From assembly GCA_016870995.1 (NCBI GenBank), contig VFZU01000024.1, positions 1 to 56,137 of the forward strand: DNA of 56,137 nucleotides, written 5' to 3'. The notes beneath the pieces were generated by a model. That model was not told where the DNA came from, did not search any database, and saw nothing but the letters and a program-made list of their open reading frames with translations. Of this stretch, positions 9,823 through 39,184 are shown piece after piece (the first letter of the stretch is position 1; each line of letters starts with the position of its first letter). This DNA comes from Acidobacteriota bacterium. GTDB taxonomy: Bacteria; Acidobacteriota; Terriglobia; Bryobacterales; Bryobacteraceae. Made by a program: the position numbers and the translations under genes.

Positions 9823-11316
9823 ATGACGCCGCGCCTGCTCTGCGTTAGTTTCTTGCTCGGCTGCCAGCTTCTGGCTCTCGATGTCTCTGGCAAAGTCATC
9901 GACTCCACTACCGGGAAACCTGTCGCCAAATGCAATCTCGTAATCGGCACCGAAGCCCAGGTCTCCCTCAACACGCTTACAGACGCGGAAGGCAATTTCA
10001 AATTCACAAACCTCAGCGAGGGCAACTATCTTCTCGTCGCCGTGAGAAAAGGCTACCTTCCCAAAGCTTACGGTTCTTCCATTCCGCAGAATCCAGGCCG
10101 CCTGTCGACCCTCAGGGAAGACACTTCCAACATCTTGCTTCGCATGATCCGCACCAGCGTTATTGCCGGCCGCGTTCACGACGAAGATGGCGACCCCGTC
10201 GGCTACGCCACGGTCATCGTCTTCAAGGAAATCCGCCGCGAGAGTGGGCGCATCGATTACACTCAGGCCGCCGCTGGCCGCGCAGAATCTGACGGCACAT
10301 ACAGCATCTCGGACATCCCTCCCGGCGAATACCGGCTTTTTGTAACATCAACCAGCCACATCGGCCCCAAGGCCTTCCCACCAACTTGGCACAGCCCAGC
10401 GCTCCTACGCCTGCGCCAGGGAGAAACGCTTTTCGACACAAACATCCAGATGCGCCTCACTGCAGTGCACTCGATTTCCGGGCGCCTCATACCGCCCGCA
10501 GGCGACGAGGCCAAGATGTATTCAGTTCGCCTCATCCCACGTAACGCCTCCCTCTCCCTGCTCGGCATCGTCAACCCCAGCGTCCAACTCAGAACATCCA
10601 CCGGCGAATTCACTGGCGCATCCATACCTGCTGGCGATTAGACACTCCAGGTGGTGCGAGAAGACATGCACACCCACGAAGTCGCGCTCCGGATGGACCT
10701 AAGCATCTATGCGAACCAGAACGACCTTCTCGTCGCCCCACGCCCCCTCACCGCCATTGCTGGACGCATCCAGTTTGAAAAAGGCCTCCCCGCCATGGAG
10801 CCGGAAAAGCTGAAGATTCTGATCTCTGCCACGGACACAGATCTCTCCACTACAGTTCGCCCGATCGCAGTCCGCGCGGATCGCAGCTTCGAAGCTGCGA
10901 ACCTCTCGCTTGCCACCTACAAGTTCACTGTCACCGACGCTTCAGGCACGCCGCTCCTGCTCGAAGAATCCGCCTTCAATCTCGCCCAAGGACTTTCCGG
11001 CCCGCTCACACTGAATGTCAAAGGCATCACCCCAACACTCAAGGCGACGGCCTCACCTTCTGCCACAGTCCTCGCGATTCTCGGTGGCAATTCGCAAACA
11101 TACAGCGGTCAACCCACAACCCTGCGCCTCCCCCCAGGCGACCATGCACTCATCGCCTTCGAAGACCTGGATTCAAGCCTGCTGACAGACCCAGCCATCA
11201 TTGAAAAACTCCGCCCACTGGCAGCCAAAGTGTCGCTCAACGCCAGCGACAACAAAACCCTCGACGTCCCCACCCTTTCCTTCGCTCAACTCGAAAAACT
11301 AACTCAACCGCGCTGA
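9823..11316 (+). pseudogene. Carboxypeptidase-regulatory-like secreted protein with in-frame amber
   Basis: One reading frame of 498 codons is interrupted by a single TAG at 10639-10641. Before it: a signal peptide (TPRLLCVSFLLGCQLLALD), a carboxypeptidase-regulatory-like beta-sandwich (KVIDSTTGKPVAKCNLV, about 22-100) and a second such domain (about 115-200). After it the same frame continues with TLQVVREDMHTHEVALRMDL and further beta-rich sequence to the stop at 11316. The context AGD[stop]TLQV fits the common AG.Y.L.V pattern, so the lost residue was probably Tyr. Either half might still be made; an ATG lies at 10663 for the second half. The function of the intact protein is unknown but it would be an exported protein. 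Confidence 0.7.
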
Positions 11317-14733: not shown

Positions 14734-15096
14734 GTGACTGAATACCGCGCCAAATCAAACAACATCCTCCGCTGCGCCGGCGGCTTGGCCGTCCTGGGCC
14801 TCGCAGTCTTCGCCTCCTGGCGTGGCCGCGATAGCGCCCTGGCATTCCTTGGATCAGCCGCCGTCAGCGTCCTCAGTCTCTGGGTGCTTGCCCGCGGGAT
14901 CGACATCCTGGGGCAGGGCCGCACCTCCTGGCTCAGGGGCTTCGGCTTCGTTGTCCGTTTCCTCATCTATGCCCTCGCCCTGTCTGCTATCATTAAGGCT
15001 TATCCGACCCGGAATCTGGAAGTGTTTTTCGGTATTTTCCTGTCCATTCTGGCAATCGGCTTAGAAGCCCTCATCGAGTCTTACAAGAATGCATGA
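14734..15096 (+). CDS. ATP synthase subunit I-like membrane protein
   Basis: A 120-residue protein with four hydrophobic segments (about 13-28, 35-54, 66-88, 95-112), matching the size and topology of ATP synthase I-chain proteins (AtpI) encoded just before subunit a. It starts with GTG three bases after the preceding stop and overlaps the start of the subunit a gene by eight bases, so translation is probably coupled. It is assigned mostly by position and topology. AtpI is thought to assist assembly of the c-ring and is not part of the final enzyme. Confidence 0.7.
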   Translation: MTEYRAKSNNILRCAGGLAVLGLAVFASWRGRDSALAFLGSAAVSVLSLWVLARGIDILGQGRTSWLRGFGFVVRFLIYALALSAIIKAYPTRNLEVFFGIFLSILAIGLEALIESYKNA

Positions 15097-17844: not shown

Positions 17845-18156
17845 ATGGCTAAAGATTATGTCGAATACCGGGACGGCCAGCATTACTTATTGGGAAGCAG
17901 AGTTCCGCTTTATCTGATAGCCGTCGCGTACACAGAAGGCACAACTCCAGAGGAAATTTGCAGCAGCTATCCTTCGCTTAATCTGGAGAAGATCTTCGGA
18001 GCAATTGCCTTTTTCCTTGCCAACAAGGCAACAATTCAAGCTGAAATCGCGCAATCGCATTTGGATAGGCAAGCCTTTCTCGCGTCTCATCCGAGCTACC
18101 CGGATCTCAAGGCAAAGCTTGCAGCCTTCCGGCTGGAATCTTCCTCAAAGTTCTGA
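17845..18156 (+). CDS. DUF433 antitoxin-like protein, copy 1
   Basis: A 103-residue protein of the DUF433 type: KDYVEYRDGQHYLLGSRVPL, then TTPEEICSSYPSLNLEKIFGAI and a helical tail. DUF433 proteins usually sit directly before DUF5615 (PIN-like) proteins and are taken as antitoxins with a DNA-binding helical domain. Here the partner starts at the very next base after the stop codon. Codon choice is clearly less C-rich than in yceH upstream, which hints at acquisition from elsewhere. A second, host-like copy of the pair lies 1.8 kb downstream. Confidence 0.85.
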   Translation: MAKDYVEYRDGQHYLLGSRVPLYLIAVAYTEGTTPEEICSSYPSLNLEKIFGAIAFFLANKATIQAEIAQSHLDRQAFLASHPSYPDLKAKLAAFRLESSSKF

Positions 18157-18507
18157 ATGATCAGATATCTCGCTGACGTTTGCTTGAACAATCACATCGT
18201 CACTGCTTGCCTAAGAAGAGAGCCGTCCATCGATTTTCTATCTGCGGCAAGAGCTGGAATCGACTCGCTACCAGATCAGGATTTATTGCAGCTAGCCCAG
18301 CTCGAAAACCGTATTCTGGTAACCCATGATTACAGGACGATGCCCGCGCACTTTGCCAACTATTTATTGGCTGGCAATCGGTGCCCCGGCGTATTCCTAG
18401 TCCATCACACTACCTCCATTGCTCTTGCTTCTGAATGGCTGCTGCTTGCTTGGGCCGCTTCAACTGAAGAGGAGTGGCGTGACCGCATCGTAGAAATCCC
18501 TCATTAA
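18157..18507 (+). CDS. DUF5615 PIN-like protein, copy 1
   Basis: A 116-residue PIN-like protein of the DUF5615 family: LADVCLNNHIV at the N-terminus (acidic residue and Asn of the PIN-like site), LSAARAGIDSLPDQDLL, the second acidic motif RILVTHDYRTMPAHF, and a C-terminal segment with EEWRDRIVEIP. Members are presumed RNase-type toxins paired with DUF433. It follows its partner with stop and start codons adjacent (TGA ATG). Codon use again differs from the neighbourhood. Activity is inferred from the family only. Confidence 0.83.
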   Translation: MIRYLADVCLNNHIVTACLRREPSIDFLSAARAGIDSLPDQDLLQLAQLENRILVTHDYRTMPAHFANYLLAGNRCPGVFLVHHTTSIALASEWLLLAWAASTEEEWRDRIVEIPH

Positions 18508-19091: not shown

Positions 19092-19625
19092 CTACCGCAC
19101 CTCCTTCACCACCACACGCACTTGATCCACCCCCTTCGGAATCTCGACAAACAGCTTGTGCGAGCCAGCCATGGCAGCATCAAGAGAAAACCGCAAAGTC
19201 TGATATTCTTTCCCCTCCCCGCCTGTGGCAATCTGCGTACCCTCGCTCAACACTTTGCCCTCTGGATCGTACACGCGATCAACGATCCGCGCCGTCCCGA
19301 TCGCGATTTGCAATGCCATCGGAGTCAGCTCCACCACGTGCGTCGAAGAGGTATCGTTCACCGGGAACTCTACTACTTGCGTGATGCTCTCGACACCTTG
19401 CGCAGGCCCAGGCGTCATTGTGGCGAAATCCGGCGGCCCCTTCATCTTCACCCACGCTCTAATTCCAATCCCTGCCATCGCCATCCCGATCGACAGCAGT
19501 AGCATTAGGCGAATCATTTTGAGGGATGGATTCGGCTTCTTGAGCAGCAAAACCGCAAAGCCCAGATAGACGACCAACCCGAAACCAGCAAGTGCAGCCA
19601 GCGCGACGATATCAGACAATTCCAC
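19092..19625 (-). CDS. Two-helix membrane protein, first of a tandem pair
   Basis: A 177-residue protein with two N-terminal helices (about 7-28 and 38-56) and a beta-rich domain that ends in HKLFVEIPKGVDQVRVVVKE. It resembles its downstream neighbour (18545-19084) in length, topology and C-terminal pattern, while the N-terminal sequence has diverged. The two are almost certainly cotranscribed, with this gene first. No enzyme motif is seen; the outer domain could be an Ig-like or binding fold. Unknown function. Confidence 0.7.
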   Translation of the reverse strand: MELSDIVALAALAGFGLVVYLGFAVLLLKKPNPSLKMIRLMLLLSIGMAMAGIGIRAWVKMKGPPDFATMTPGPAQGVESITQVVEFPVNDTSSTHVVELTPMALQIAIGTARIVDRVYDPEGKVLSEGTQIATGGEGKEYQTLRFSLDAAMAGSHKLFVEIPKGVDQVRVVVKEVR

Positions 19626-19654
19626 GCAGCCAAGGCTATCATGGGCTTACCGCC

Positions 19655-19963
19655 ATGCCCAAAGACTACGTTGAACTCCGCGAGGAAGTCCTCTACATCT
19701 CCGGCAGCAGACTCCCCCTCTACTTACTCGTTACCGAGTACGAAAACGGCGCTTCTCCTGAAGAGATCCACTTCAGCTTCCCCACTCTCTCCCTCGAGCA
19801 GATCCACGGCGCAATCGCCTTCTACCTCGGCAACCGGCACGCCATCGAAGACGGCTCCTGGCAAACCCGCAAAGCCTGGCAGGACTTCCGCACGGCCAAC
19901 CCCAACCCCTCCAAGCTCGACATTATGCTCGAAAACTACAAGCAGCAATCCCAGCGCAAGTAA
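19655..19963 (+). CDS. DUF433 antitoxin-like protein, copy 2
   Basis: A 102-residue DUF433 protein, clearly related to copy 1 (MPKDYVELREEVLYISGSRL against MAKDYVEYRDGQHYLLGSRV, with PEEI and GAIAF conserved). Unlike copy 1 it uses the C-rich codons of the surrounding genome, so it is probably older in this lineage. I chose ATG 19655 because copy 1 begins at the same point; the longer frame from 19592 adds 21 atypical residues. The start of the divergent membrane gene is 29 bases away. The stop is followed at once by the ATG of its partner. Confidence 0.85.
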   Translation: MPKDYVELREEVLYISGSRLPLYLLVTEYENGASPEEIHFSFPTLSLEQIHGAIAFYLGNRHAIEDGSWQTRKAWQDFRTANPNPSKLDIMLENYKQQSQRK

Positions 19964-20380
19964 ATGCTACATCTTCTCGCGGACGTCTCTCTCAACCACC
20001 ATCTGCTCACCGCCTGCCACCGCAGAGGCGCCAACCTCGACATCCTCTCCGCCGCCAAAGCCCGCATCGAAGGCATGAACAATAAAGCGCTCCTTGCCTT
20101 CGCCGCCGAGCAGGATCGCATCCTTCTCACCCACGACATCCTCACCCTCACCAGAGACTTCTACGAATACCTCGCCACCGGTGCCTTCAGCCCAGGCGTC
20201 TTCCTTCTCGACTCCACGACGCCGATCTCCGAAGCTGCCACATGGCTCGCACTCGCCTCCGCCGCAACAGAACCCGAGCATTGGGACAATCTCATCGTCG
20301 AGATCCCCTTCCTCCGCCTGATCGAACTACCGCTGCCCGCTAGCGAGCAACTGCCCCGCATAGAGCATCACGAGCCCTGA
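19964..20380 (+). CDS. DUF5615 PIN-like protein, copy 2
   Basis: A 138-residue DUF5615 protein related to copy 1: LADVSLNHHLLTACHRRGAN, LSAAKARIEGMNNKALL and the acidic RILLTHDILTLTRDF. It is about 20 residues longer at the C-terminus than copy 1. Start and stop codons are adjacent to those of its DUF433 partner (TAA ATG), the same joint as in copy 1. Its last 54 bases overlap a small membrane-protein gene on the other strand. It is probably the toxin half of a toxin-antitoxin-like pair; this is inferred. Confidence 0.83.
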   Translation: MLHLLADVSLNHHLLTACHRRGANLDILSAAKARIEGMNNKALLAFAAEQDRILLTHDILTLTRDFYEYLATGAFSPGVFLLDSTTPISEAATWLALASAATEPEHWDNLIVEIPFLRLIELPLPASEQLPRIEHHEP

Positions 20381-20515: not shown

Positions 20516-21841
20516 TCAGCCCTTCGGTGTCACTGCCTTTGAGATGTCGTTGTACAGAACAAACACCACCATCATCAGCAAGAACGCCAGCCCTACCTGC
20601 AGCACGCGCTCCTTCAATTGCAGCGACAAACCCCGCCGCCGCACCATCTCCACCAGCAGCACCAGGATCCCGCCACCATCAAGCACCGGAATCGGCAGCA
20701 AATTGAAGATCGCCAGATTCAAGCTCACCATCGACATCAGCGACACAAAATCCCCAACGCCTTCCTTCGCCGCATCTGCCGCCATCCGCGCAATTCCCAC
20801 GGGTCCTTCAAATTGCTTCGGCGACAACCGCATCTGCACTACGCCCTTCAGGTAATCGAAGATCATCGTCGCGCCACGCAGGTTGTACTTAAAGCTCTGC
20901 TGCAATGCCTCCACAGGCCCAAGTGCCACCACCACATACTTCGGTTCCAGTTGAATCCCGATCATCCAACGCTTCTCGGCCTCGTTAAACTTAGGCTGCA
21001 CCCCCACCTTGTTGCGCACATTGGCCCGCTCATAAATCAGCTCCACAGCCTTGCCATTGCTCTCGCGCACAATCTCAACCAGCTTCGTCAGACTTCGCAC
21101 TGGAACATTGTTGACGCTGATCACCACATCTCCAGGCATCAGCCCCACCTTCTCGGCGTCGAATCCCTTCAGGATGTACTTGATCCGAATCTCGCTCTGC
21201 TCTCTCCATCCCGCATAACCCACTTGCGTCTTTTCATCCGTCTTCGGAGTGACATTCAAGTTCAGCGTCGACTCCCCGCGCTTCACCTCAAGCGGAAACA
21301 CCTTCCCTGCTCCGGTCAGTTCTTTCACCACCACGTCTTCCCAGGTCGGGTTCTTCACACCATCGAACGCCAGGATCGTATCGCCTTCGAGCACTCCTGC
21401 TTGCGCCGCCGGCGAGCCCTTCTCTACATGCCCCACCACAGCCGGACCATCCGCGTTCATCACCTTCGGGAACTTATACATGAACAATCCCGCGAGCAGC
21501 ACCACCGCCAGAATAATATTCATCGCTGGCCCTGCCGCAATGATGAACAACCGCTGCCACCGCGGCTTGTTCATAAAGCTTCGCGGGTCCGGGTTTGTCC
21601 CTGGGTCGACGGTCAAATCATCTTGCCCCAGCATCTTCACATACCCGCCGAACAGAATTGCCGAGAACCGGAAATCCGTCTCCCCGATCTTGAACCCAAA
21701 TAACCTAGGCCCAAAACCCAACGAGAACTGCTCCACCTTTACGTTGCAGAGTAGGGCCGCCCAATAATGCCCCAGCTCGTGGATGATGATCATCACGCCC
21801 AGCAATATGAGCAGCCAAAAAACGCTGTTTAGGAATTCCAT
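20516..21841 (-). CDS. rseP: Site-2 intramembrane metalloprotease RseP
   Basis: A 441-residue M50B protease that cuts membrane-bound anti-sigma factors and remnant signal peptides within the inner membrane. The zinc site HELGH (His21, Glu22, His25) lies in the first helix. Two PDZ domains follow (about 115-190, GSPAAQAGVLEGD; about 205-285, EKVGLMPGDVV). The C-terminal helices hold the third ligand in NLLPIPVLDGG. Length and domain order match RseP. It is transcribed away from the Lnt-like gene, 28 bases downstream of it, as in many genomes where envelope-processing genes cluster. Confidence 0.93.
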   Translation of the reverse strand: MEFLNSVFWLLILLGVMIIIHELGHYWAALLCNVKVEQFSLGFGPRLFGFKIGETDFRFSAILFGGYVKMLGQDDLTVDPGTNPDPRSFMNKPRWQRLFIIAAGPAMNIILAVVLLAGLFMYKFPKVMNADGPAVVGHVEKGSPAAQAGVLEGDTILAFDGVKNPTWEDVVVKELTGAGKVFPLEVKRGESTLNLNVTPKTDEKTQVGYAGWREQSEIRIKYILKGFDAEKVGLMPGDVVISVNNVPVRSLTKLVEIVRESNGKAVELIYERANVRNKVGVQPKFNEAEKRWMIGIQLEPKYVVVALGPVEALQQSFKYNLRGATMIFDYLKGVVQMRLSPKQFEGPVGIARMAADAAKEGVGDFVSLMSMVSLNLAIFNLLPIPVLDGGGILVLLVEMVRRRGLSLQLKERVLQVGLAFLLMMVVFVLYNDISKAVTPKG

Positions 21842-21869: not shown

Positions 21870-23309
21870 TCAATCGGCAGCGTTAGCCACCATCGACTTG
21901 GAAGTTCCCACACGAGTACGCCACCCCAACAATACGGCGCAAGTAACGCAATCCCACCCCAAAGCATCTCCAATCGCTGTGTACAGTGTAGCCATCGGCG
22001 CAGGCACTGCGACATCCAATCGCAATTTTTGCCCCGGCATCGAAGAGCTCAACTGCTCCGCCACAATTCGCCCATAGGCATCTGTAATGGTCAATCGGCC
22101 TTCCCGCGCTGTCCGCACCACCATGTAGCCGTTCTCGATTCCTCGCACAGCGGTCATCCTCGCGGCAAGCTGCCCATCGGCACCAAAGTCCCAAGCCGGC
22201 ACAACTATCACCGCCGCGTCCCGCATTCGATACGCGCGGCCAAGAGAAGCGAAATGCATATCCTTGCGGATTGCAATTCCATAGCGAACGCCGTCGATGT
22301 CCCGCACCAAAGATTCCTTCCCACGCAAGTAACCACGTTCGGGCGGCGCCATAAACTGTTTCTGGTAGCGCGCCTCTAGCTTACCTTCCGGGCTGAACAA
22401 CCAAGCTTCATTCAAGATGCCAGCCTGAGTTTGAAACGCAAGACCAGCGCTCAACCATACGGCGTGCTCCTTCGCTTGGCCGGCAAATTGACTTTGCCAA
22501 TCCGCAGCAGCAGCCTCAGAAGCAACGGCAATTTTTTCCGGCAAAACTACTACCCGCGCACCCTCCTTGGCCAGCGCGCCGATCAGCTTTTGATACTCCC
22601 CACGAATCGCATTCACGTAAGGAGCCTTCGCCTCCAGCCCTATCGCATCGTCAATCGCGGCAAGACCAAATCGTCTCGCCGTCCCTCCCTGCTTGGCCCC
22701 TTCAAACCGCACAACCCCATAAAGCACCACAGCGCCCACAATCAGCACAGTCGCCCCAAGCATCGCGATCCTGCCCTTCGTGCTCCGCCCCGGCAGCATC
22801 GCCGTCACGATAGCCGAAGGAACAAGCGCTAGCGGAAACAACACTCCCGCCACTCCAAACAAAGACGCAACCTGCATCAGCACTGGCACTTCGGCTTGTG
22901 TATAAGCAAGACTGCCCCAATTCCCATCTGGCAAGAACCTCGCCATCAAGGTATCAACAGCTACCCAGAACACCGGGTAGGCAAACGCAACCCACGCCGT
23001 ATCCCAACGTCGCAAGGCCCGTCTCGATTCCGACACTACAAACATCCAAATCAGCGCCTGCCCAACCACAACCAGCAGCACGGCCGGCGCAGACATCACG
23101 GTCAGAAAATAGGATGCGTTGCTACTCGTCGCGATTTGGGCAGCAGCCAACGTCAACCACCGCCACGAACGCTCCGACGCAATATTCACCAGCACCAACA
23201 GCAATGCGGGGACAATCCACACCAGCCACCAACTTGGATCCAGTGCAACTACAAAACGGAGCAGAAACCCTACTGCCAAGGCACCGACAAGCCCAGCTGC
23301 CAAGTTCAT
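21870..23309 (-). CDS. Lnt-like nitrilase-fold protein, catalytic Cys apparently Arg
   Basis: A 479-residue protein: about six membrane helices (1-200), then a carbon-nitrogen hydrolase domain (about 212-455), the plan of apolipoprotein N-acyltransferase. The Glu (E258 in VVLPEKIA) and Lys (K317 in YQKQFM) of the Glu-Lys-Cys triad are present. At the cysteine position the sequence is GIAIRKDMHF, where related proteins have ICKD; residue 348 is Arg (codon CGC, 22266-22268), one transition from TGC. The PAWDF and RGIENG motifs that follow are intact. If the alignment holds, acyl transfer is lost or changed, and the protein may be inactive or have a binding role. Confidence 0.72.
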   Translation of the reverse strand: MNLAAGLVGALAVGFLLRFVVALDPSWWLVWIVPALLLVLVNIASERSWRWLTLAAAQIATSSNASYFLTVMSAPAVLLVVVGQALIWMFVVSESRRALRRWDTAWVAFAYPVFWVAVDTLMARFLPDGNWGSLAYTQAEVPVLMQVASLFGVAGVLFPLALVPSAIVTAMLPGRSTKGRIAMLGATVLIVGAVVLYGVVRFEGAKQGGTARRFGLAAIDDAIGLEAKAPYVNAIRGEYQKLIGALAKEGARVVVLPEKIAVASEAAAADWQSQFAGQAKEHAVWLSAGLAFQTQAGILNEAWLFSPEGKLEARYQKQFMAPPERGYLRGKESLVRDIDGVRYGIAIRKDMHFASLGRAYRMRDAAVIVVPAWDFGADGQLAARMTAVRGIENGYMVVRTAREGRLTITDAYGRIVAEQLSSSMPGQKLRLDVAVPAPMATLYTAIGDALGWDCVTCAVLLGWRTRVGTSKSMVANAAD

Positions 23310-23367
23310 TGTTGTGAGAGTACCACCTCCGCCAAAAAATTCGAGATGAAAGCTCTTGATTGTGTCA

Positions 23368-23389
23368 CTGTACTAGTCAACTATCACAG
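23368..23389 (+). promoter_or_regulatory. Candidate GntR/YtrA operator palindrome
   Basis: A 22-base imperfect palindrome with arms CTGT..TAGT and ACTA..ACAG lies nine bases before the GTG start of the GntR regulator. YtrA-type regulators commonly bind such CTGTxxTA-like dyads in front of their own operon. The position so close to the start implies overlap with the promoter or the start of the transcript, so binding should block the operon. This is read from the sequence; the regulator pairing is inferred. Confidence 0.6.
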
Positions 23390-23398
23390 TAGAACGCT

Positions 23399-23743
23399 GT
23401 GATCTTCCGACTCAATCCGAACTCCGGCATGCCCATCAACCTCCAGATCATGGAGAAGGTCAAGCACGCCATCGAAAACGGCGTTCTCCGGTCGGGCGAT
23501 CAACTCCCCGGCATTCGCAAGCTCGCGGAAACCATGGTGATGAACCCCAAGACAGTCGCCAAGGCCTATCGCGAGCTTGAACACGAAGGCCTCGTCGAAC
23601 TCCGCCAGGGAGCCGGCGCCTTTGTCAGCGAAAACCTCAACACCAAGGGGGTGACCGACCGTATGCAAACCGCCCGTCCCATCGTTAAGAAAACCGTCGA
23701 GCGCCTCATCGACGCCGCCGTCGCCGCAAGAGTCTCCAAATGA
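23399..23743 (+). CDS. GntR family regulator, YtrA subfamily
   Basis: A 114-residue repressor with an N-terminal winged-helix DNA-binding domain (PINLQIMEKVKHAI, LPGIRKLAETMVMNPKTVAKAY, LRQGAGAFV; about 8-78) and only a short helical tail (about 90-114) instead of a ligand domain. This is the YtrA layout, in which the regulator heads an ABC transporter operon. The GTG start lies just after a palindromic operator, and the stop overlaps the start of the ABC ATPase gene by four bases (ATGA). Confidence 0.9.
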   Translation: MIFRLNPNSGMPINLQIMEKVKHAIENGVLRSGDQLPGIRKLAETMVMNPKTVAKAYRELEHEGLVELRQGAGAFVSENLNTKGVTDRMQTARPIVKKTVERLIDAAVAARVSK

Positions 23744-24645
23744 AGCAGAACCTCGCCATCGAGACCGTGGCTCTCACCAAACACTACCCCAAGGTCGAAG
23801 CCCTCCGCGGCATGACGATCAACGTCCCGCAAGGCTCCCTCTGCGGCCTCATCGGCCTCAACGGTGCCGGCAAGACAACCACTCTCCGCATCCTCCTCGG
23901 CATGGCCAAGCCAACCTCTGGCACTGCCAAAGCCCTCGGCCTCAACGCGCTCGACCCCGAGCAAAACCGGCTGATCCGCTCACGCACCGCCTTCGTACCA
24001 GAGCGCAAAGACCTCTTCCCTTATATGACAGCAAGTGAAGTCATCCGCTTCACCATGGGCTTTTATCCCAACTGAAACAAGGACCTCGAAGCCACCTACG
24101 CGCAACGCTTCGAGATCCCGCTCGACCGCAAGGTCACCAAGCTCTCAAAGGGCACGCTTACCAAGCTCCATATGCTCCTCGCGATCGCCCGCGGCGCGGA
24201 GTTGCTCATCCTCGACGAACCCACCGACGGTCTCGACGCTCTCGCCAGCGAAGATGCTCTGCAAGCCCTTACGATGCTGGTGGCCGAACAAGGCATCACA
24301 GTCCTCATCTGCTCTCACCGCATCGAAGAAGTCGAGCAGATCGCCGACCATCTCTGCCTCGTCCACAAGCGCGTTTGTCTCAAACAAGGCCCTCTCGACG
24401 ACCTGCGCTCCGCAACGCGCCGCATCCAATTCGGTCTCGAGGCCACCCCCGATCAACTCGCTCAACTTCAAAAGCTGGGCAGCCTCCGGCAGAGCGGTCT
24501 CTCAATCAGCATCTTCACAGACGAGAACACAGACCAGATCCTGAGTCTCGCCCGCGACTTCGGTGCCTTCGATATCGCCGCCCACCCCGTTCCCCTTCGT
24601 GAAATGTTCGTCGATCTTGTAAGGAGTCACGATGCTCTGGCTTAA
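23740..24645 (+). pseudogene. ABC transporter ATPase with in-frame opal stop
   Basis: A 302-codon frame for an ABC ATPase, broken by TGA at 24073-24075 (codon 112). Before the stop: the Walker A loop GLNGAGKTTT (39-48) and the Q-loop region. After it, in the same frame: a degenerate signature LSKGTLTKLHM (about 135-145), Walker B LLILDEPTDGLD (155-166) and the switch His in CSHRIEE. The context FYPN[stop]NKDLEATY matches the FYPNW of such proteins, so TGG has probably become TGA. The first half alone lacks the signature and Walker B and cannot work as an ATPase. The gene belongs to the GntR-led operon. Confidence 0.85.
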
Positions 24646-25350
24646 ATCCTGGACCAAAGTCCGCTTCCGATTCGCCCTCGCTGTCTTCCTGGCCATCTAC
24701 ATCCTTGCACTCATATTCCTCTACTTCGCTCCTCAATTCAACGTGAGGTTCAAAGCGATCACTCCGCAACAGCTGGGCCAGAAGATCTGGGCGGTATTCA
24801 TCCTCGCTTACGGCGGCTTGCTCCTCCCGGTCTCTGCCAAGATCCTCGCCGGATCTGGCATCAATGCTCAAACCTCCATGGGCATGGCTCATGGCTTCCA
24901 CGGCTCGATGAGCTTCCTGCTCTCCATGCCAGCCTCTCGCACCCGCCTCATGGCCACCCGCGCCCTCACGGGTGCCGCCCTGCTCTTTCTGCTTGCGATC
25001 ACCACATTTGCCGTAGCCATTTACGCGCCCCCAGCTTCAATATCGCTCTCGACTCGATCCATGCCTGGAACTACTTGCCCAACGCGCTGGTCGTAGCCTT
25101 CTTCTTCTATGTAATGGCCGTCTGGCTCTCCACCATCTTCGATCAATTTTGGGCTAGTACGATTGGCATGATGATCCTCGGCATGATTGCCGGCTACAGC
25201 GCCACAAGACCCCAGAACTGGTTCGACCTCGCTTCTTACCTGCTCAACCCGAACCCTCTCATGCCGCTGGGCCAAACCCTCTTCCTCCTGACACTCACCG
25301 CACTGCAGATCGAAGCCGCTCGCTGAGTCGTCAACCGCAAGGAGTCTTAA
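24632..25350 (+). pseudogene. ABC transporter permease, frameshifted
   Basis: The permease partner of the ABC ATPase, overlapping its end by 14 bases. The first 132 codons encode membrane helices and a sensible N-terminus (MLWLKSWTKVRFRFALAVFL). At a run of five C (25028-25032) the frame shifts: the continuing membrane sequence (SFNIALDSIHAWNYLPNALV...) lies in another frame, which a sixth C would restore. In that frame a TGA at 25324-25326 stops translation seven codons before a TAA at 25348, in the context EAAR[stop]VVNRKES, which may again be a lost Trp. The last stop precedes the next gene by six bases. Confidence 0.8.
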
Positions 25351-25356
25351 CAACCC

Positions 25357-26454
25357 ATGCCCAAGAAATACCATTCCATCGCCTCTGTCCTCATCTTCGC
25401 CATCATTGGCTTGGGCATCGGCTACCTCTTTGGGAAGCTGCTCAAAAGCTCTACAGGCAGTCTCAACATTGGCCTCTCCATCATCCCGATCGCAATTCTT
25501 GTCACATGGCTGATTCTGGCTTTTCACGAGCTCGGTCACGTCATCGGCGGCTCTCTCTCCGGGTTCCGCATGCACTTGTTCGCGGTCGGCCCATTGCGCA
25601 TCAACCGTTCCGGCGATCGCCTTGAATTCGCCTTCAATCGAACCCCTTCTCTCTGGGGTGGCATCGCCGCTTCGCTCCCTTCTCCGGAAGCACTCGCCGA
25701 CACCGAAACACTCCGCAAGCAAATGCTGCGGGTCGTCGCGGGTGGCCCCATCGCTTCCCTGCTCGGCACACTCGCCGCACTTCCCGCCATCTGGCTCTGG
25801 CCACGCAACCAACATCTCGCGGCAGCTTTCATGATCTTTGCTATCGGCTCCTTCTGCATCGCCCTGGCGACCATGCTCCCGATTGGCAATGCAGGCTTCG
25901 TCAACGATGGCTCGCGCCTCCTCCAACTTCTGCGCCGCAGCCCTGAAGGCGACCGTTGGGTCGCGAACGCCCTGCTCGGTTCCATGTCGCTCAACCTGCG
26001 TCCCCGCGAATGGCCCGCTCAGCTGATCGAAGCCACCACAACCGACACGCAACCCTCTTTGGACAGCATCCTCGCCATGTAGACGCGCCACACCTACCAC
26101 CTCGACCGCAACGAATTCGACCAGGCCCGCCACTGGCTAAACCTCGCGCTCACTCACGCCGAAGAGCTGCCCGCAGCCGCACGTCCCATTCTTCACAGCA
26201 GCGCCGCATTGTTCTACTCCCATTTCGAGCCAGACTTGCCACGCGCCCGCGATCATCTCAAGGCCGCAAAACCAGGCTTTCTCACGAAAGACTCTGTGGC
26301 TCTCTCTGAATCCGCCGTCCTCATCGCCGATGGCAAACTCACCGAGGCCAGCCAATCGCTCTCTCTGGCCCGGCAATCCCTCAACGCTCTCACCGGTTCC
26401 AGCCGAGCCAGCGTTGAAAAACTCATAGAACAACTCGAAGCCAAAACCCGCTAA
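25357..26454 (+). pseudogene. M50-like membrane metalloprotease with TPR-like tail, amber codon
   Basis: A 366-codon frame interrupted by TAG at 26080-26082. The N-terminal 241 residues hold membrane helices, the zinc motif HELGH (57-61) and a distal NDGSRLL (about 183-189) that could supply the third ligand, as in M50 site-2 proteases. The downstream part continues in frame with TRHTYHLDRNEFDQARHWLN and helical, TPR-like sequence to 26454. The stop probably replaced a Tyr codon. The protease core could still be made without the tail. It sits in the GntR operon between the permease and the S41 peptidase. Confidence 0.72.
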
Positions 26455-26465
26455 AGGAACACAAC

Positions 26466-27674
26466 ATGTCACGCACTATACGATACGTGTGTCTCGGCGC
26501 ACTGCTCATACTCTGCGCCCATTCTCAAACCAACATCCAGCTCTCGCTCGATAGCTTCGACCAAGTCTGGCGGACCATCAACGAGAAACACTTCGACCCC
26601 AATCTGAACGGCATCGATTGGAACGCCGCTCGCGAAGAACTCCGCCCCAAAGTCGCGGCGTCAACCAGCAAAGAAAAAGCCCGCAAACATACAGAAGCGC
26701 TGCTCGCAAAGCTCGGCCACTCACACGTCGGCATCACCCCCGCCGAGGCCTATCGCGACCTCGACGCGCCCCGCCTTGATGGCCAATCCGGCCTCAAGTT
26801 CGAGATCATCGGTGGCGACGCCATCCTCGCTAACACTGCCCACGCCGGCGCGGTCATTCGCGAAGTCAATGGCCGCCGCGTCCGCGAGCGCATCGCCCGC
26901 GCCACCACTCCGACGCTGAAACGCCTCGCCGTCCGCAACATGCTTGGAGGCCTCCCGGGCGAAACCCTCGAGCTCCTCCTCGAAGACGATCAAGGCAAGG
27001 TCGCCTCGCACAAAGTCGAACTCACCAAGCCCACCAGCCGCCTCGCTCAGTTCGGCCACCTGCCGGCAATCCCGCTCGACTTCCACTTCGAACAACTCGG
27101 CTCCCAATCCGGCTATGTCCGCATCTCAAGCTTCTTCGATCCAGAAGCCCTCCAGGACCTCTTCAAGCAAGCCACCACCGCCTGCAACAAGTGCCGCGGC
27201 ATCATCATAGATCTCCGCGATAACCCGGGCGGAATCGGCGCACTCGCCACAGCCGTCACCGGCTGGTTCATCGACAAGTCAGTTACCCTCGGCACGCTCT
27301 ACCTGCGCCAAACCAAACTCCAACTCATCGCAAACCCCCGCCCCGAGCCCTTCCTCGGCAAGGTCGCCGTCCTCATCAACTCTGGCTCTGCCTCCACCGC
27401 CGAGTTCCTCGCTGCGGGTCTCCAGGACATCCACCGGGCCAAAGTCTTCGGCCAAACCTCAGCCGGCATGGCCCTCCCTTCTGCAATTGAAAAGCTCCCC
27501 ACGGGCGACGGTTTCCAGTACACCACCGCCGACTACATCACTGCGGGTGGAATACACATCGAAGGGCTCGGCGTAGTACCCGATGTCCTCATCGAACCCA
27601 CCCGTCAACAACTCACAAAACAAATGGACCCGGCCCTCACCGCCGCACGTACATGGATTGAAGCAAAGGAATAA
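26466..27674 (+). CDS. S41 family serine peptidase, secreted
   Basis: A 402-residue peptidase with a signal peptide (cleaved near CAHSQ), an N-terminal helical region (about 25-90), a shortened PDZ-like segment (about 108-180) and the S41 core. The nucleophile is Ser308 in NSGSASTAEF; DLRDNPGG (249-256) is the usual substrate loop. Instead of the GKG lysine of CtpA-type enzymes it has GQTSAGMALPS, as in the IRBP/tricorn-like branch. It probably cleaves C-termini of periplasmic proteins. AAAGGA precedes the ATG. It is intact, unlike the three genes before it in the same operon. Confidence 0.87.
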   Translation: MSRTIRYVCLGALLILCAHSQTNIQLSLDSFDQVWRTINEKHFDPNLNGIDWNAAREELRPKVAASTSKEKARKHTEALLAKLGHSHVGITPAEAYRDLDAPRLDGQSGLKFEIIGGDAILANTAHAGAVIREVNGRRVRERIARATTPTLKRLAVRNMLGGLPGETLELLLEDDQGKVASHKVELTKPTSRLAQFGHLPAIPLDFHFEQLGSQSGYVRISSFFDPEALQDLFKQATTACNKCRGIIIDLRDNPGGIGALATAVTGWFIDKSVTLGTLYLRQTKLQLIANPRPEPFLGKVAVLINSGSASTAEFLAAGLQDIHRAKVFGQTSAGMALPSAIEKLPTGDGFQYTTADYITAGGIHIEGLGVVPDVLIEPTRQQLTKQMDPALTAARTWIEAKE

Positions 27675-27679
27675 CCAAA

Positions 27680-28417
27680 ATGCGCATCACACTCCTTCTC
27701 CTCGCGTCCCTTCTCAAGGCCGCCGACCTCCCGACAGCGGAAACTCTCTTGGACCGCTTCGTTGAAGCCACAGGTGGCAAGGCTGCCTACTCACAACTCA
27801 AGTCGCAAATTACCCGTACCGAAATTGAGTTCGTGGGTGCTGGCATCAAAGGCACCAATACCTCTCTGAATGTCTACCCCAACCGAGCTCACACCACCAT
27901 GGAGCTTACCGGCCTCGGCAAGATGTTCAGCGGCAATTGGGACGGCAACGTCTGGGAATCCTCCGCCATACAAGGCCAGCGCCTCGTCACCGGAGCCGAG
28001 CGCAGCATGATGCTCCGCCTCACCGATATCCGTGCCGCTGCAGATTGGTGCAAATACTACGCCTCGGTCACAACGGAAGCCGAAGAAACCGTCGACGGCC
28101 AGGTCTGCTACCGCATCGTCTCAACGCCCAAGGACGGCGGCAAACCCGAGACCTCCTGGATCCTCAAGGATTCCGGTCTCGTCTATCGCACACGCATGAC
28201 TCTCGTCACCCAAATGGGTGAAATCCCCATGGAAGTCACCGTTTCTGAATACCGCAAAGTCGGCCCCTTCCTCCTTCCACACGTCTCCAACCAGCAGGTC
28301 GGGCCGCAGAAGATTGCGAGCAAGGTCAAGGAAATCCTCTACGACACCGCGATCGAAGACGCCCAACTTGAGCCCCCAGCCGAGATCAAGACGCTGATCG
28401 CGAAAGAAAAGAAGTAG
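27680..28417 (+). CDS. Exported LolA/LppX-like fold protein
   Basis: A 245-residue exported protein with a short signal peptide (ITLLLLASLLKA) and the start pattern TAETLLDRFVEATGGKAAY, common in acidobacterial proteins with an outer-membrane-lipoprotein-sorting (LolA-like) beta fold. Such proteins often accompany secreted peptidases. It is six bases downstream of the S41 gene and clearly in its operon. The half-barrel fold suggests lipid or lipoprotein binding, which is inferred. Its end overlaps the convergent dxr gene by 32 bases. Confidence 0.7.
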   Translation: MRITLLLLASLLKAADLPTAETLLDRFVEATGGKAAYSQLKSQITRTEIEFVGAGIKGTNTSLNVYPNRAHTTMELTGLGKMFSGNWDGNVWESSAIQGQRLVTGAERSMMLRLTDIRAAADWCKYYASVTTEAEETVDGQVCYRIVSTPKDGGKPETSWILKDSGLVYRTRMTLVTQMGEIPMEVTVSEYRKVGPFLLPHVSNQQVGPQKIASKVKEILYDTAIEDAQLEPPAEIKTLIAKEKK

Positions 28418-29567
28418 CCACTTCGCGCGATCGACGATCCACCTCAAGCAACTCCGCCACTGTGGCCGGATGCGACACGCCCACTCGCTCCAGCGTCTCG
28501 GCCACCGTGGCGGCAATTCCCAGGAACGGAATCTGCCCCTTCAGAAAAGCCTCTACCGCCACCTCATCGGCGGCATTCAACGTACACCCCGCACTCCCTC
28601 CAGCCCGTATCGCCTGATATGCCAACCCAAGCAACGGAAACTTCTCCCAATCCGGCGGATGAAAGTCCCACTGATGCACTTCATCCCAGCGCAACTTCGG
28701 CACCGGCGCATCCGCCCGCTCTGGATACGTCAGCGCATACTGGATCGGCATCCGCATATCCGTCGCACACACCTGCGTGATCACACTGCCATCATTAAAC
28801 TCCACCATCGCATGCACCTTCGATTGCGGATGCACCACCACTTCCACCTCATCCGCGGTGAAATCAAACAACCAGCACGCCTCAATCACCTCAAACCCCT
28901 TGTTCATCAGGGTCGCCGAATCGATCGTAATCCGCGGCCCCATCTTCCAGGTCGGATGGTTCAACGCCTGCTCCGGCGTCACACTCGCCAACTCCTCTTT
29001 CGGAGTCTTACGGAACGGCCCACCGGACGCCGTCAAAATCAACTTCACGGCCTCGGCCCGCTTCCCCGCCCTCAGACACTGATGCGCCCCATTATGCTCG
29101 CTATCGACAGGCAACAATTCCGTCCCCGCCTTCCGCGTCGCCGCCATCACCAACTCCCCACCCGACACCAGCACTTCCTTATTTGCCAAACCAATTCGCT
29201 TGCCCAACCTCACCGCTTCATAAGTAGCCTCAAGCCCCGCCACTCCTACGATCGCCGACAACACAAACTCCACCTCCGGAGCCGTCGACGCCATCAATCT
29301 CCCCGCCGCACCGTGCTCCAACTGCGGCCACTCATCTCGCCCCAAACCACTCTTCTCAAGCTCACCCACTAACCGCTCTCGCGCACCCTCATCTGCCACC
29401 ACAGCCAGCTCCGGCCGAAACTCCGCAATCTGCTGTGCCAGCAAAGAGACATTTCCACCCGCCACCAGCGCATGCACGCCATACCGCCCATCCCAACGCC
29501 TCACCACATCCAGCGTATTCACACCAATGGAGCCCGTTGACCCCAAAACCGTTAGCTTCGTACTCAC
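28386..29567 (-). CDS. dxr: 1-deoxy-D-xylulose 5-phosphate reductoisomerase
   Basis: A 393-residue enzyme of the MEP isoprenoid pathway that makes 2-C-methyl-D-erythritol 4-phosphate with NADPH. Visible: the NADPH motif GSTGSIGVNTLDV (9-21), GLANKEVLVSGG, the metal-binding DSEHNGAHQC (Glu ligand), SGGPFR, and LNHPTWKMGPRITIDSATLMNK. The HNGAHQC segment replaces the usual HNAIFQC, a mild local variation. The full length is typical. It stands alone and is convergent with the LolA-like gene; the usual neighbour rseP is 7 kb away. Confidence 0.95.
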   Translation of the reverse strand: MSTKLTVLGSTGSIGVNTLDVVRRWDGRYGVHALVAGGNVSLLAQQIAEFRPELAVVADEGARERLVGELEKSGLGRDEWPQLEHGAAGRLMASTAPEVEFVLSAIVGVAGLEATYEAVRLGKRIGLANKEVLVSGGELVMAATRKAGTELLPVDSEHNGAHQCLRAGKRAEAVKLILTASGGPFRKTPKEELASVTPEQALNHPTWKMGPRITIDSATLMNKGFEVIEACWLFDFTADEVEVVVHPQSKVHAMVEFNDGSVITQVCATDMRMPIQYALTYPERADAPVPKLRWDEVHQWDFHPPDWEKFPLLGLAYQAIRAGGSAGCTLNAADEVAVEAFLKGQIPFLGIAATVAETLERVGVSHPATVAELLEVDRRSREVATSFLSRSAS

Positions 29568-36232: not shown

Positions 36233-39184
36233 GTGTTATTCCGAAGGCAGCGGGCTTTCTTGTGCTTTCTGATAGCGGTCGCGGCCTACGCGCAACCCTA
36301 TGATGGCGTCAGGATTGCATCCATCCAGTTCTCCCCGGCGAACCAGCCCATACCGGATGACGAACTGCGCCAACTTCTCCCGCTCAAACCAGGCTCTATC
36401 TATTCCGGCCTCGCGCTCAGAGAAGCCATGGCTGTCCTCTACCGCACCGGCCACTACTCCAACCTCTCCGTCGAAGCCAGCAACACCGACGGCGGCCTCG
36501 CCCTCATCTTCCTCACCGAAATTCACGAATTCACCGGCAACGTCGACGTCTTCGGCCTCCCCAGCTCTCTCTCGAAAGGCAGCCTCATCAACGCGGCCAA
36601 GCTCCCCCTCGGCACTCAATTCGAAGAAAATCTGTTGAACCAGTCCATCGAAGCCATGGAAGCAGGTCTTCGCCTCGATGGCTACTACGAAAGTAAAGTC
36701 CGTTACATCCTCTCTCGCGACGCTCCCCACAAACAGGTCAACATTCAGTTCTTCATCGAACCGGGCCCCCACGCGCGCTTCGCACAGCCCACACTCAAAG
36801 GCAAACTCCTGCTCAAACCAGAGCAAATTCTCTCCGCCACCCATTGGCGCAGACAGTGGCCCATTCCCGGCTGGCGTTACATCAACGAACAACGCATTCA
36901 GAGCGGCCTTCGAAACATCCTCAACGCCTACCGCAAACGCAACCACCTCATGGCTGTCGCCGAAGTCAAACGCCTCGACTACCAACCCACCAGGCGAATC
37001 GCCATCCCCAGCCTCCGCATCGAAGCGGGGCCGCGGGTCGAAGTCCGCGCCATTGGAACCAAGCTTGGCAAACCCCTCCTTCGCAAACTCGTCCCCATCT
37101 ACGAGGAACAGGCCATCGATAAAGACCTTCTCCTCGAAGGCAATCGCAAGATAGCTTCCTTGCTCCATGCCCGCGGCTTCTTCGACGCCAAGGTCTCCTA
37201 CGAAGTCGAACAAGATGCCAACCCGGTCGAAGATATCGACCCCCAAAAAGACGCCTTCGTCGACTACAACATCGAACTCGGCCAGCGCTTCAAAGTCGCC
37301 CAAATCACCTTCACGGGCAACCGCTATTACGATCGCCTGACCCTCCTCGAACGCATCTCCATCCGCCCGGCCACCATCCTGCGCTACCGCCAGGGTCGCT
37401 ATTCCGATGAACTACTCGCTGCAGACCGCACCACCATTGAACAGCTCTACCGCTCCTCCGGCTTTCTCGCAGCGAAAGTCACTACAGGCGTAACACGCAG
37501 CCACAAAGGCCGCGAAGATCTTGTCGCCGTCGTCATCGAAATCGAAGAAGGGCCTCAGTCCTTCATCGAATCCGTCCGCGTCGAAGGCATCGCCGATTCA
37601 GACCGGCCTATCATTGATTCCCAAATCAGCGCCCAGCCCGGCCAGCCCTACTCGATCTACACCGTCAACACTGATCGCGATCGCATCCTCAACCTCCTCT
37701 ATCAGTCCGGCTATTCAGAGGCCAACCTCGACACCCGCATCCTTGCCGGCTCGTCCCCCAACAACGTCACCATCGTCTATAACATCCAGGGCGGCACCCA
37801 ACACTTCGTCCGCGAGGTCGTCATCACCGGCCTCAAAGACACCAACCTCGACCTCGTCAAACGCCGCATCGGCCTCAAGGACGGCGACCCTCTCAGCAAC
37901 ACCGAAATCTACGCCTCCCAACGCCGCCTCTACGATCTCGGCATCTTCGCCAAAGTCGACGCTGCCCAGCAAAATCCCGATGGTGACACCATCTCGAAGA
38001 TCCTGCTGTTCAACCTCGAAGAAGCCTCCAGATACAGCTTCAACGGTGGTCTCGGTGCTGAAATCGCCCGCATCGGCGGCGGCATCACCAGCTTCGACTC
38101 CCCCGCGGGCGGCGCCGGCTTTTCCCCCCGTCTCAGCCTCGGCGTCAACCGCACCAACTTCCTTGGCCTCGGCCACACCGTCGGCGCACAAACTCGTCTA
38201 TCGAACATCCAGCGCCGCGTCCTGTTGAGCTATCTCGCCCCCCAGTTCCGCGACAGCAGCAAACTCAGCCTCACCACCACAGCCCTTTACGACGATGCCC
38301 GCAACGTCCGCACCTTCAATTCCAAACGCCTCGAAGGCGCTCTCCAGCTCGCTCAGCGCCTCAACCTCGCCAACTCGATCCAGTACCGCTTCACCTACCG
38401 CCGCGTCACCATCGACGAATCCACTCTCAAAGTCGCACCCACACTGATTCCCCTCCTCGCCCAACCCGTCCGTGTCGGCAGCTTCTCATCCACCTTCATT
38501 CAAGACCGCCGCGACGATCCCGTCGACGCCAAGCGCGGCCGCTACACCACCGTCGACTTCGGCGTTGCCTCGAGAGCCTTCGCCTCCTCGGCCAATTTCC
38601 TCCGCCTCCTCACTCGCAACTCCAGCTACTACCGCCTCGGCCGCGATATCGTCTTCGCCCGCAGCATCAACCTCGGCATCCTCACTCCCTACCGCGCCAC
38701 CGGCCTCACCAGCCAAACCGACATCCCCCTTCCAGAACGCTTCTTCTCCGGTGGTGCTTACTCTCATCGGGGCTTCCCAGAAAACCAGGCCGGCCCGCGC
38801 GACCTCACCACAGGCTTCCCCATCGGCGGCAAAGCGCTCCTCATCAACAACCTCGAACTCCGCTTCCCCCTGCTCGGTGACAACCTCGGTGGCGTCTTTT
38901 TTCACGATGCCGGCAACGTCTACTCCGACCTCAAGCGTCTCAACCTTAGCTGGAACCAAAAGAACGTGAGCGACTTCGATTACATGGTCCACTCCCTCGG
39001 CTTCGGCATCCGCTACCGCACGCCCATCGGCCCCGTCCGTATCGACCTCGCACTCACACCCAATGCCCCGCGCTTCAACGGCTTCGAAGGCAGCCGTGAA
39101 GACCTCCTGTTCGGTCGCGGTCGCGCCGCCCAACTCCGCGTCAACCAGTTCCAATTCCACATCTCGCTCGGGCAGGCCTTCTGA
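36233..39184 (+). CDS. Omp85-family outer membrane protein, TamA-like
   Basis: A second Omp85 protein of roughly 980 residues. From GTG 36233 it begins with a clean signal peptide (LFRRQRAFLCFLIAVAAYAQ); TTG codons at 36209 and 36215 are alternatives. Several POTRA repeats (about 20-560, more than the three of E. coli TamA) precede a barrel with the loop-6 motif GGAYSHRGFP and a terminal Phe. Its place directly before a SurA-like gene and tamB marks it as the TAM outer-membrane partner, although the many POTRA repeats recall BamA. Its TGA stop overlaps the next ATG (TGATG). The ThiF-type gene is divergent. Confidence 0.88.
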   Translation: MLFRRQRAFLCFLIAVAAYAQPYDGVRIASIQFSPANQPIPDDELRQLLPLKPGSIYSGLALREAMAVLYRTGHYSNLSVEASNTDGGLALIFLTEIHEFTGNVDVFGLPSSLSKGSLINAAKLPLGTQFEENLLNQSIEAMEAGLRLDGYYESKVRYILSRDAPHKQVNIQFFIEPGPHARFAQPTLKGKLLLKPEQILSATHWRRQWPIPGWRYINEQRIQSGLRNILNAYRKRNHLMAVAEVKRLDYQPTRRIAIPSLRIEAGPRVEVRAIGTKLGKPLLRKLVPIYEEQAIDKDLLLEGNRKIASLLHARGFFDAKVSYEVEQDANPVEDIDPQKDAFVDYNIELGQRFKVAQITFTGNRYYDRLTLLERISIRPATILRYRQGRYSDELLAADRTTIEQLYRSSGFLAAKVTTGVTRSHKGREDLVAVVIEIEEGPQSFIESVRVEGIADSDRPIIDSQISAQPGQPYSIYTVNTDRDRILNLLYQSGYSEANLDTRILAGSSPNNVTIVYNIQGGTQHFVREVVITGLKDTNLDLVKRRIGLKDGDPLSNTEIYASQRRLYDLGIFAKVDAAQQNPDGDTISKILLFNLEEASRYSFNGGLGAEIARIGGGITSFDSPAGGAGFSPRLSLGVNRTNFLGLGHTVGAQTRLSNIQRRVLLSYLAPQFRDSSKLSLTTTALYDDARNVRTFNSKRLEGALQLAQRLNLANSIQYRFTYRRVTIDESTLKVAPTLIPLLAQPVRVGSFSSTFIQDRRDDPVDAKRGRYTTVDFGVASRAFASSANFLRLLTRNSSYYRLGRDIVFARSINLGILTPYRATGLTSQTDIPLPERFFSGGAYSHRGFPENQAGPRDLTTGFPIGGKALLINNLELRFPLLGDNLGGVFFHDAGNVYSDLKRLNLSWNQKNVSDFDYMVHSLGFGIRYRTPIGPVRIDLALTPNAPRFNGFEGSREDLLFGRGRAAQLRVNQFQFHISLGQAF

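Follow-up and report, generated by a model that had tools for sequence, protein, structure and literature searches.

A probable young pseudogene cluster in an accessory transporter and protease operon of an Acidobacteriota genome

The window, that is, the whole stretch of DNA analysed (56,137 bases), is one entire contig (C24) of a draft genome of 5.72 Mb in 215 contigs (98.99% complete). The locus under study lies between rseP and dxr and consists of the following features.

20516..21841, minus strand: rseP (TIGR00054, 305.8 bits), which borders the block on its left side in relatives
23356..23398, plus strand: conserved upstream block of about 40 bases, from alignment with relatives
23399..23743, plus strand: short GntR-family regulator of 114 aa (PF00392)
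23740..24645, plus strand: ABC ATPase gene, broken by a TGA at 24073-24075
24632..25350, plus strand: ABC-2-type permease gene, broken by a frame change and a TGA at 25324-25326
25357..26454, plus strand: M50-type membrane metalloprotease gene (PF02163), cut by a TAG at 26080-26082
26466..27674, plus strand: S41 peptidase, 402 aa, full length (PF03572, 107.7 bits)
27680..28417, plus strand: last gene of the block, 245 aa, conserved in those carriers whose contigs extend that far
28386..29567, minus strand: dxr (TIGR00243, 437.2 bits), the right flank of the block

Syntenic, open orthologues of these genes are carried by four genomes of the same genus (G001, G002, G005 and G007; Bryobacter-type MAGs, contigs JALHNH010000011.1, JAPKYY010000610.1, JANXUM010000414.1 and CANGVB010000286.1), which share with the window the order regulator, ATPase, permease, M50, S41, last protein and dxr, to the limits of their contigs. 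Amino-acid identity to the window is roughly 46-69% for the ATPase, permease, M50 and S41 proteins. The four intact operons harbour neither stops nor a frame change and their regulator has 127 residues, whereas the copy in the window is broken and its regulator has 114. Across the lesion sites the four loci (L015 to L018) are open in one frame, L015 up to the end of its contig, which falls inside the M50 gene of G007 and makes the comparison incomplete beyond that point. The sequence-only reading had held three successive genes to be broken: its lesions (24073, 25028-25032, 25324 and 26080) are all present in the translations, and the genes are open in the four relatives. All three stops of the operon are aligned to columns that are tryptophan in every relative with letters there.

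In G003, G004 and G006, of the same genus, no M50 match was found at E 1e-10 and no close ATPase orthologue (best E values of 9.7e-34, 1.7e-33 and 8.6e-29, as compared with 2.7e-132 or lower in the carriers), and rseP and dxr are spaced by 38 to 95 bases between alignment ends. The block is thus carried by five of the eight same-genus genomes compared, with the broken copy in the window counted, and missing from three. On this comparison of gene content and spacing, the block is an accessory and dispensable insert between rseP and dxr, a property that the sequence-only reading did not see.

The TGA of the ATPase gene is codon 112 of 301, between the Walker A and signature motifs. A search for the ATPase in 41 genomes (its own and 40 relatives) found the four same-genus orthologues at 68-71% identity and free of stops, and the window with one TGA. 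In relative L017 the nucleotide-binding domain is complete (76.7 bits, profile positions 1-136 of 137); in the window the first ATPase fragment matches profile positions 1-78 only and the second has no match, so that no nucleotide-binding domain is encoded in one frame. The permease changes frame at about 25022-25044, around a run of five C at 25028-25032 (the exact site is not fixable by alignment because the relatives vary in length there), and its TGA lies seven residues ahead of the next stop. The family label of the permease is taken from L017, where the match to PF12679 is weak (E 1.1e-4, 22 bits, below the curated cut-off of 27.2). Because the ATPase reading frame ends between the nucleotide-binding motifs and that of the permease is lost half way, no working transporter is possible from these genes: the transporter is dead. 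Programmed frameshifting at the C run was considered unlikely, as this stretch lacks conservation and is read in a single frame by L015 to L018. A duplicate copy that would make the loss harmless was likewise rejected, as searches of the genome itself gave none: the other ATPase matches listed (four of eight) have 30-35% identity, the DNA search returned a single other place (39 bases), and the M50 search at E 1e-10 returned one place.

The M50 gene is cut at codon 242 of 365. Both of its motifs (HELGH, of the HEXXH type, and a downstream NDG) precede the stop, and the truncated protein still matches PF02163 (31.9 bits, cut-off 27.2). The window match in the M50 search has one TAG inside and the other seven matches have no stops; in a scan of the genome collection, the window's own M50 protein gave no match and the alignment of relatives found four. 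A protease core may therefore still be made from the truncated gene, as judged from the position of the motifs. The locus had been described as the decay of a transport and proteolysis system, a description that fits the dead transporter but is too strong for the protease, which is cut only behind its catalytic motifs. The peptidase that follows had been called intact and is so, its reading frame being open over the full 402 residues. For the last gene, no Pfam or NCBIfam match was found at E 0.001. In G001 the S41 gene of the otherwise intact operon (L018:6322-7248) is missing about 95 internal residues in frame, an alteration of the operon in another lineage too.

The regulator had also been called intact, and here the earlier description fails. 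A GntR winged helix-turn-helix domain is present at its N-terminus (PF00392, 59.9 bits, cut-off 27), yet the protein lacks 13 residues that all four relatives have. In the alignment this is a single gap near the C-terminus, at a place where the four relatives agree, and it corresponds to an in-frame loss of 39 bases flanked by short similar sequences. The conserved block upstream of the regulator is suggestive of a promoter: the four relatives share a putative TTGATT-17-TACTAT, whose second hexamer starts with another base in the window. A scan with the sigma-70 consensus found no plus-strand promoter ahead of the regulator in either the window or relative L017.

The distribution of stops outside the operon was determined by a reverse test, in which open reading frames of the relatives were searched for in the window and in 40 further stretches of the same genome (61 places aligned; 60,234 bases). 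It flagged the ATPase and M50 stops of the operon, one other gene of the window and three further places; the permease stop is too close to the end of its gene for the filter, and both permease pieces and the stop were visible in a separate comparison of reading frames. The three further places were read as artefacts: (i) an extended start at 14822; (ii) an extended start before purS (L021); (iii) an antisense reading frame at 37718. The other gene of the window is the following.

9838-11316, plus strand: gene of a carboxypeptidase-regulatory-like domain protein, broken by a TAG at 10639-10641

It is 48% identical to an open relative of 502 residues in G002 (L135:14776-16284), and its TAG falls at a tyrosine column. 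Within 2.7 kb the operon thus harbours three stops plus a frame change, whereas the rest of the aligned sequence, about 57 kb, yielded one real stop, a contrast with no clean probability because the location was picked in the first place for its lesions. The same test on G002 (51,387 aligned bases) flagged three places, all taken for antisense or extension artefacts as judged by their coordinates. A direct comparison of the window's reading frames with those of relatives, in which 29 of 44 could be compared and every one of these was matched across 80% or more of its length, was set aside, as it is blind to truncation and accepts the fragments of a broken gene.

A model-based scan of 757,566 other bases of the genome found at least six convincing internal stops in five genes, an undercount, as the scan required 20 codons without ATG or GTG after a stop and thereby missed the one at 10639. 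With thresholds relaxed in the light of known cases, it gave 55 candidates, 4 of them in the window; a stricter version missed the window's own lesions, and one with other smoothing lost known cases. The six stops taken as real outside the window are L022:14248, L030:588 and L033:17394, which were tested with Pfam, and L022:14854, L034:4183 and L143:10752, which were accepted by eye. The affected genes encode a MacB-like permease, a GAF/PAS protein, a sensor kinase, an unnamed protein and a sigma-54-type activator (the last two by eye). Candidates at L139, L141 and L147 were read as gene junctions, and the others not counted, except L021:7372, were dismissed by eye from the printed stretch. 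In G002 the same scan, over 411,970 bases, gave 13 candidates, of which L058:4137 is doubtful and the others were judged by eye. The genome therefore bears a modest general load of broken genes, within which the operon is a dense spot. The sequence-only reading had spoken of concentrated decay; the open syntenic copies in four genomes and the few stops elsewhere agree with this, but the operon is not the sole damage, given 10639 and at least six further stops.

The age of the breakage was estimated at columns that are conserved among the relatives, with counts summed over genes and the permease taken in two pieces. The window differs at 104 of 601 such columns in the regulator, ATPase, permease and M50 genes, as compared with 70 of 352 in the S41 and last genes. 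The ATPase alone appears somewhat faster, with 37 changes specific to the window and 25 specific to L018. In a codon branch model, omega on the window branch was lower for most gene sets and higher for the regulator alone (0.079 versus 0.043; 2dlnL of 1.27), but the fits are saturated, with branch lengths at their bound in several of them. By a rough estimate, free drift long enough to produce three stops would be expected to leave a visible excess of amino-acid changes, and no such overall excess was seen in the simple counts, a point against pseudogenisation. The damaged genes, when pooled, are no faster than their intact neighbours; thus, either the breakage is young relative to the split of the species or the lesions are not real. 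From these counts, the decay is probably young.

Taken together, these observations are best explained by a recent and ordinary pseudogenisation of a dispensable accessory operon, an explanation in which we have good though not full confidence. An operon at the rseP-dxr junction, present in part of the genus, would no longer have been needed in this lineage. A first lesion would have removed the transporter, and selection on the adjoining genes would then have dropped, so that further lesions accumulated quickly; the S41 and last genes would be either still used or merely not yet hit. The lesions differ in kind (stops, a frame change and an in-frame deletion) and are packed in 2.7 kb. Ordinary bacterial pseudogene clusters represent the decay of operons once selection is lost. 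The locus resembles them in that several independent inactivating changes lie in adjacent genes for which the orthologues of relatives are open, and it differs from them solely in that all three stops are at tryptophan columns.

Alternatively, the genome being a draft of 215 contigs, the lesions may have arisen by faulty sequencing or assembly. A frame change at or near a C run is consistent with such errors, as are the lack of excess amino-acid changes in the pooled damaged genes and the presence of stops in other genes; the finding at 10639 slightly lowered our confidence in recent pseudogenisation and slightly raised the probability given to errors. However, errors would have to be concentrated in the operon to the extent found by the reverse test, and the clean loss of 39 bases in frame from the regulator is atypical for base-calling. 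Errors are thus considered an unlikely source of the lesions.

It is also conceivable, although quite improbable in our estimate, that the loss is partial and kept by selection, so that the shortened M50 core, the S41 peptidase and the last gene form a reduced proteolytic module without the ABC pump. The catalytic motifs ahead of the M50 stop, the full-length S41 and the open, conserved last gene are compatible with such a module, in which case the lineage would carry a stable reduced form of the operon, with its transporter half uncoupled, rather than a corpse. However, the damage upstream and the altered upstream block should lower expression, the stability and activity of a truncated M50 protein are putative, and the time since breakage is perhaps too short to tell.

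That the stops are read as amino acids (by recoding or programmed readthrough) and the genes are functional is suggested by the tryptophan columns of all three operon stops, an agreement with a probability of about 0.12 under transition mutations, and by the stops at L033:17394 and L034:4183, which by motif seem to be at tryptophan positions; yet this is highly improbable, as the operon stops are mixed (two TGA and one TAG), the TAG at 10639 is at a tyrosine column, the relatives have no stop at the operon sites, and a further mechanism would be required for the frame change. The 43 tRNAs found (an incomplete set, lacking a tRNA-Tyr and drawn from 150 scored candidates out of 174) include one tRNA-Trp (CCA) and none with a stop-reading anticodon, and the genes of both release factors, RF1 and RF2 (prfA and prfB), are present without internal stops; it was on the tRNA and release-factor evidence that recoding was judged unlikely.

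Under recent pseudogenisation of an accessory operon, the genus offers a clear snapshot of operon loss: the block is open in four of its genomes, absent from three and freshly broken in one. Although operon decay is a familiar process, such a snapshot makes the order of its events testable.

By family, the intact system comprises a GntR regulator, an ABC ATPase, a membrane protein (weakly ABC-2), a membrane metalloprotease and an S41 peptidase of the C-terminal-processing kind. Among regulators with such a layout, the one encoded by clnR is YtrA-like. As here, a small GntR-family regulator accompanies adjacent ABC transporter genes in ytrGABCDEF of Bacillus subtilis (PMC12772383) and in clnRAB of Clostridioides difficile (PMC6117091). 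The reported inducers are lipid-II-cycle inhibitors for ytr-type operons (PMC12772383) and, for ytr and clnRAB-type systems together, such inhibitors or an antimicrobial peptide (PMC12772383, PMC6117091). Unlike these systems, the block in the window continues with the M50 and S41 proteases and is broken, and its likeness to YtrA is one of family and layout. By analogy, the intact system may have combined export and proteolysis under envelope stress.

Several further features of the flanking DNA were recorded. Between rseP and the regulator, the window has an lnt-like gene (21870-23309, minus strand; TIGR00546, 72.4 bits, below the cut-off of 132.9), to which the relatives' loci examined gave no match of at least 45% identity. 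Two neighbouring pairs of small reading frames, at 17845-18507 and 19592-20380, both match one single pair in L015, L016 and L017, and one of them thus seems, from this matching, to be a diverged duplicate. The GC skew is negative in all listed 1-kb steps of positions 1-56137, and is strongest at about 29-51 kb.
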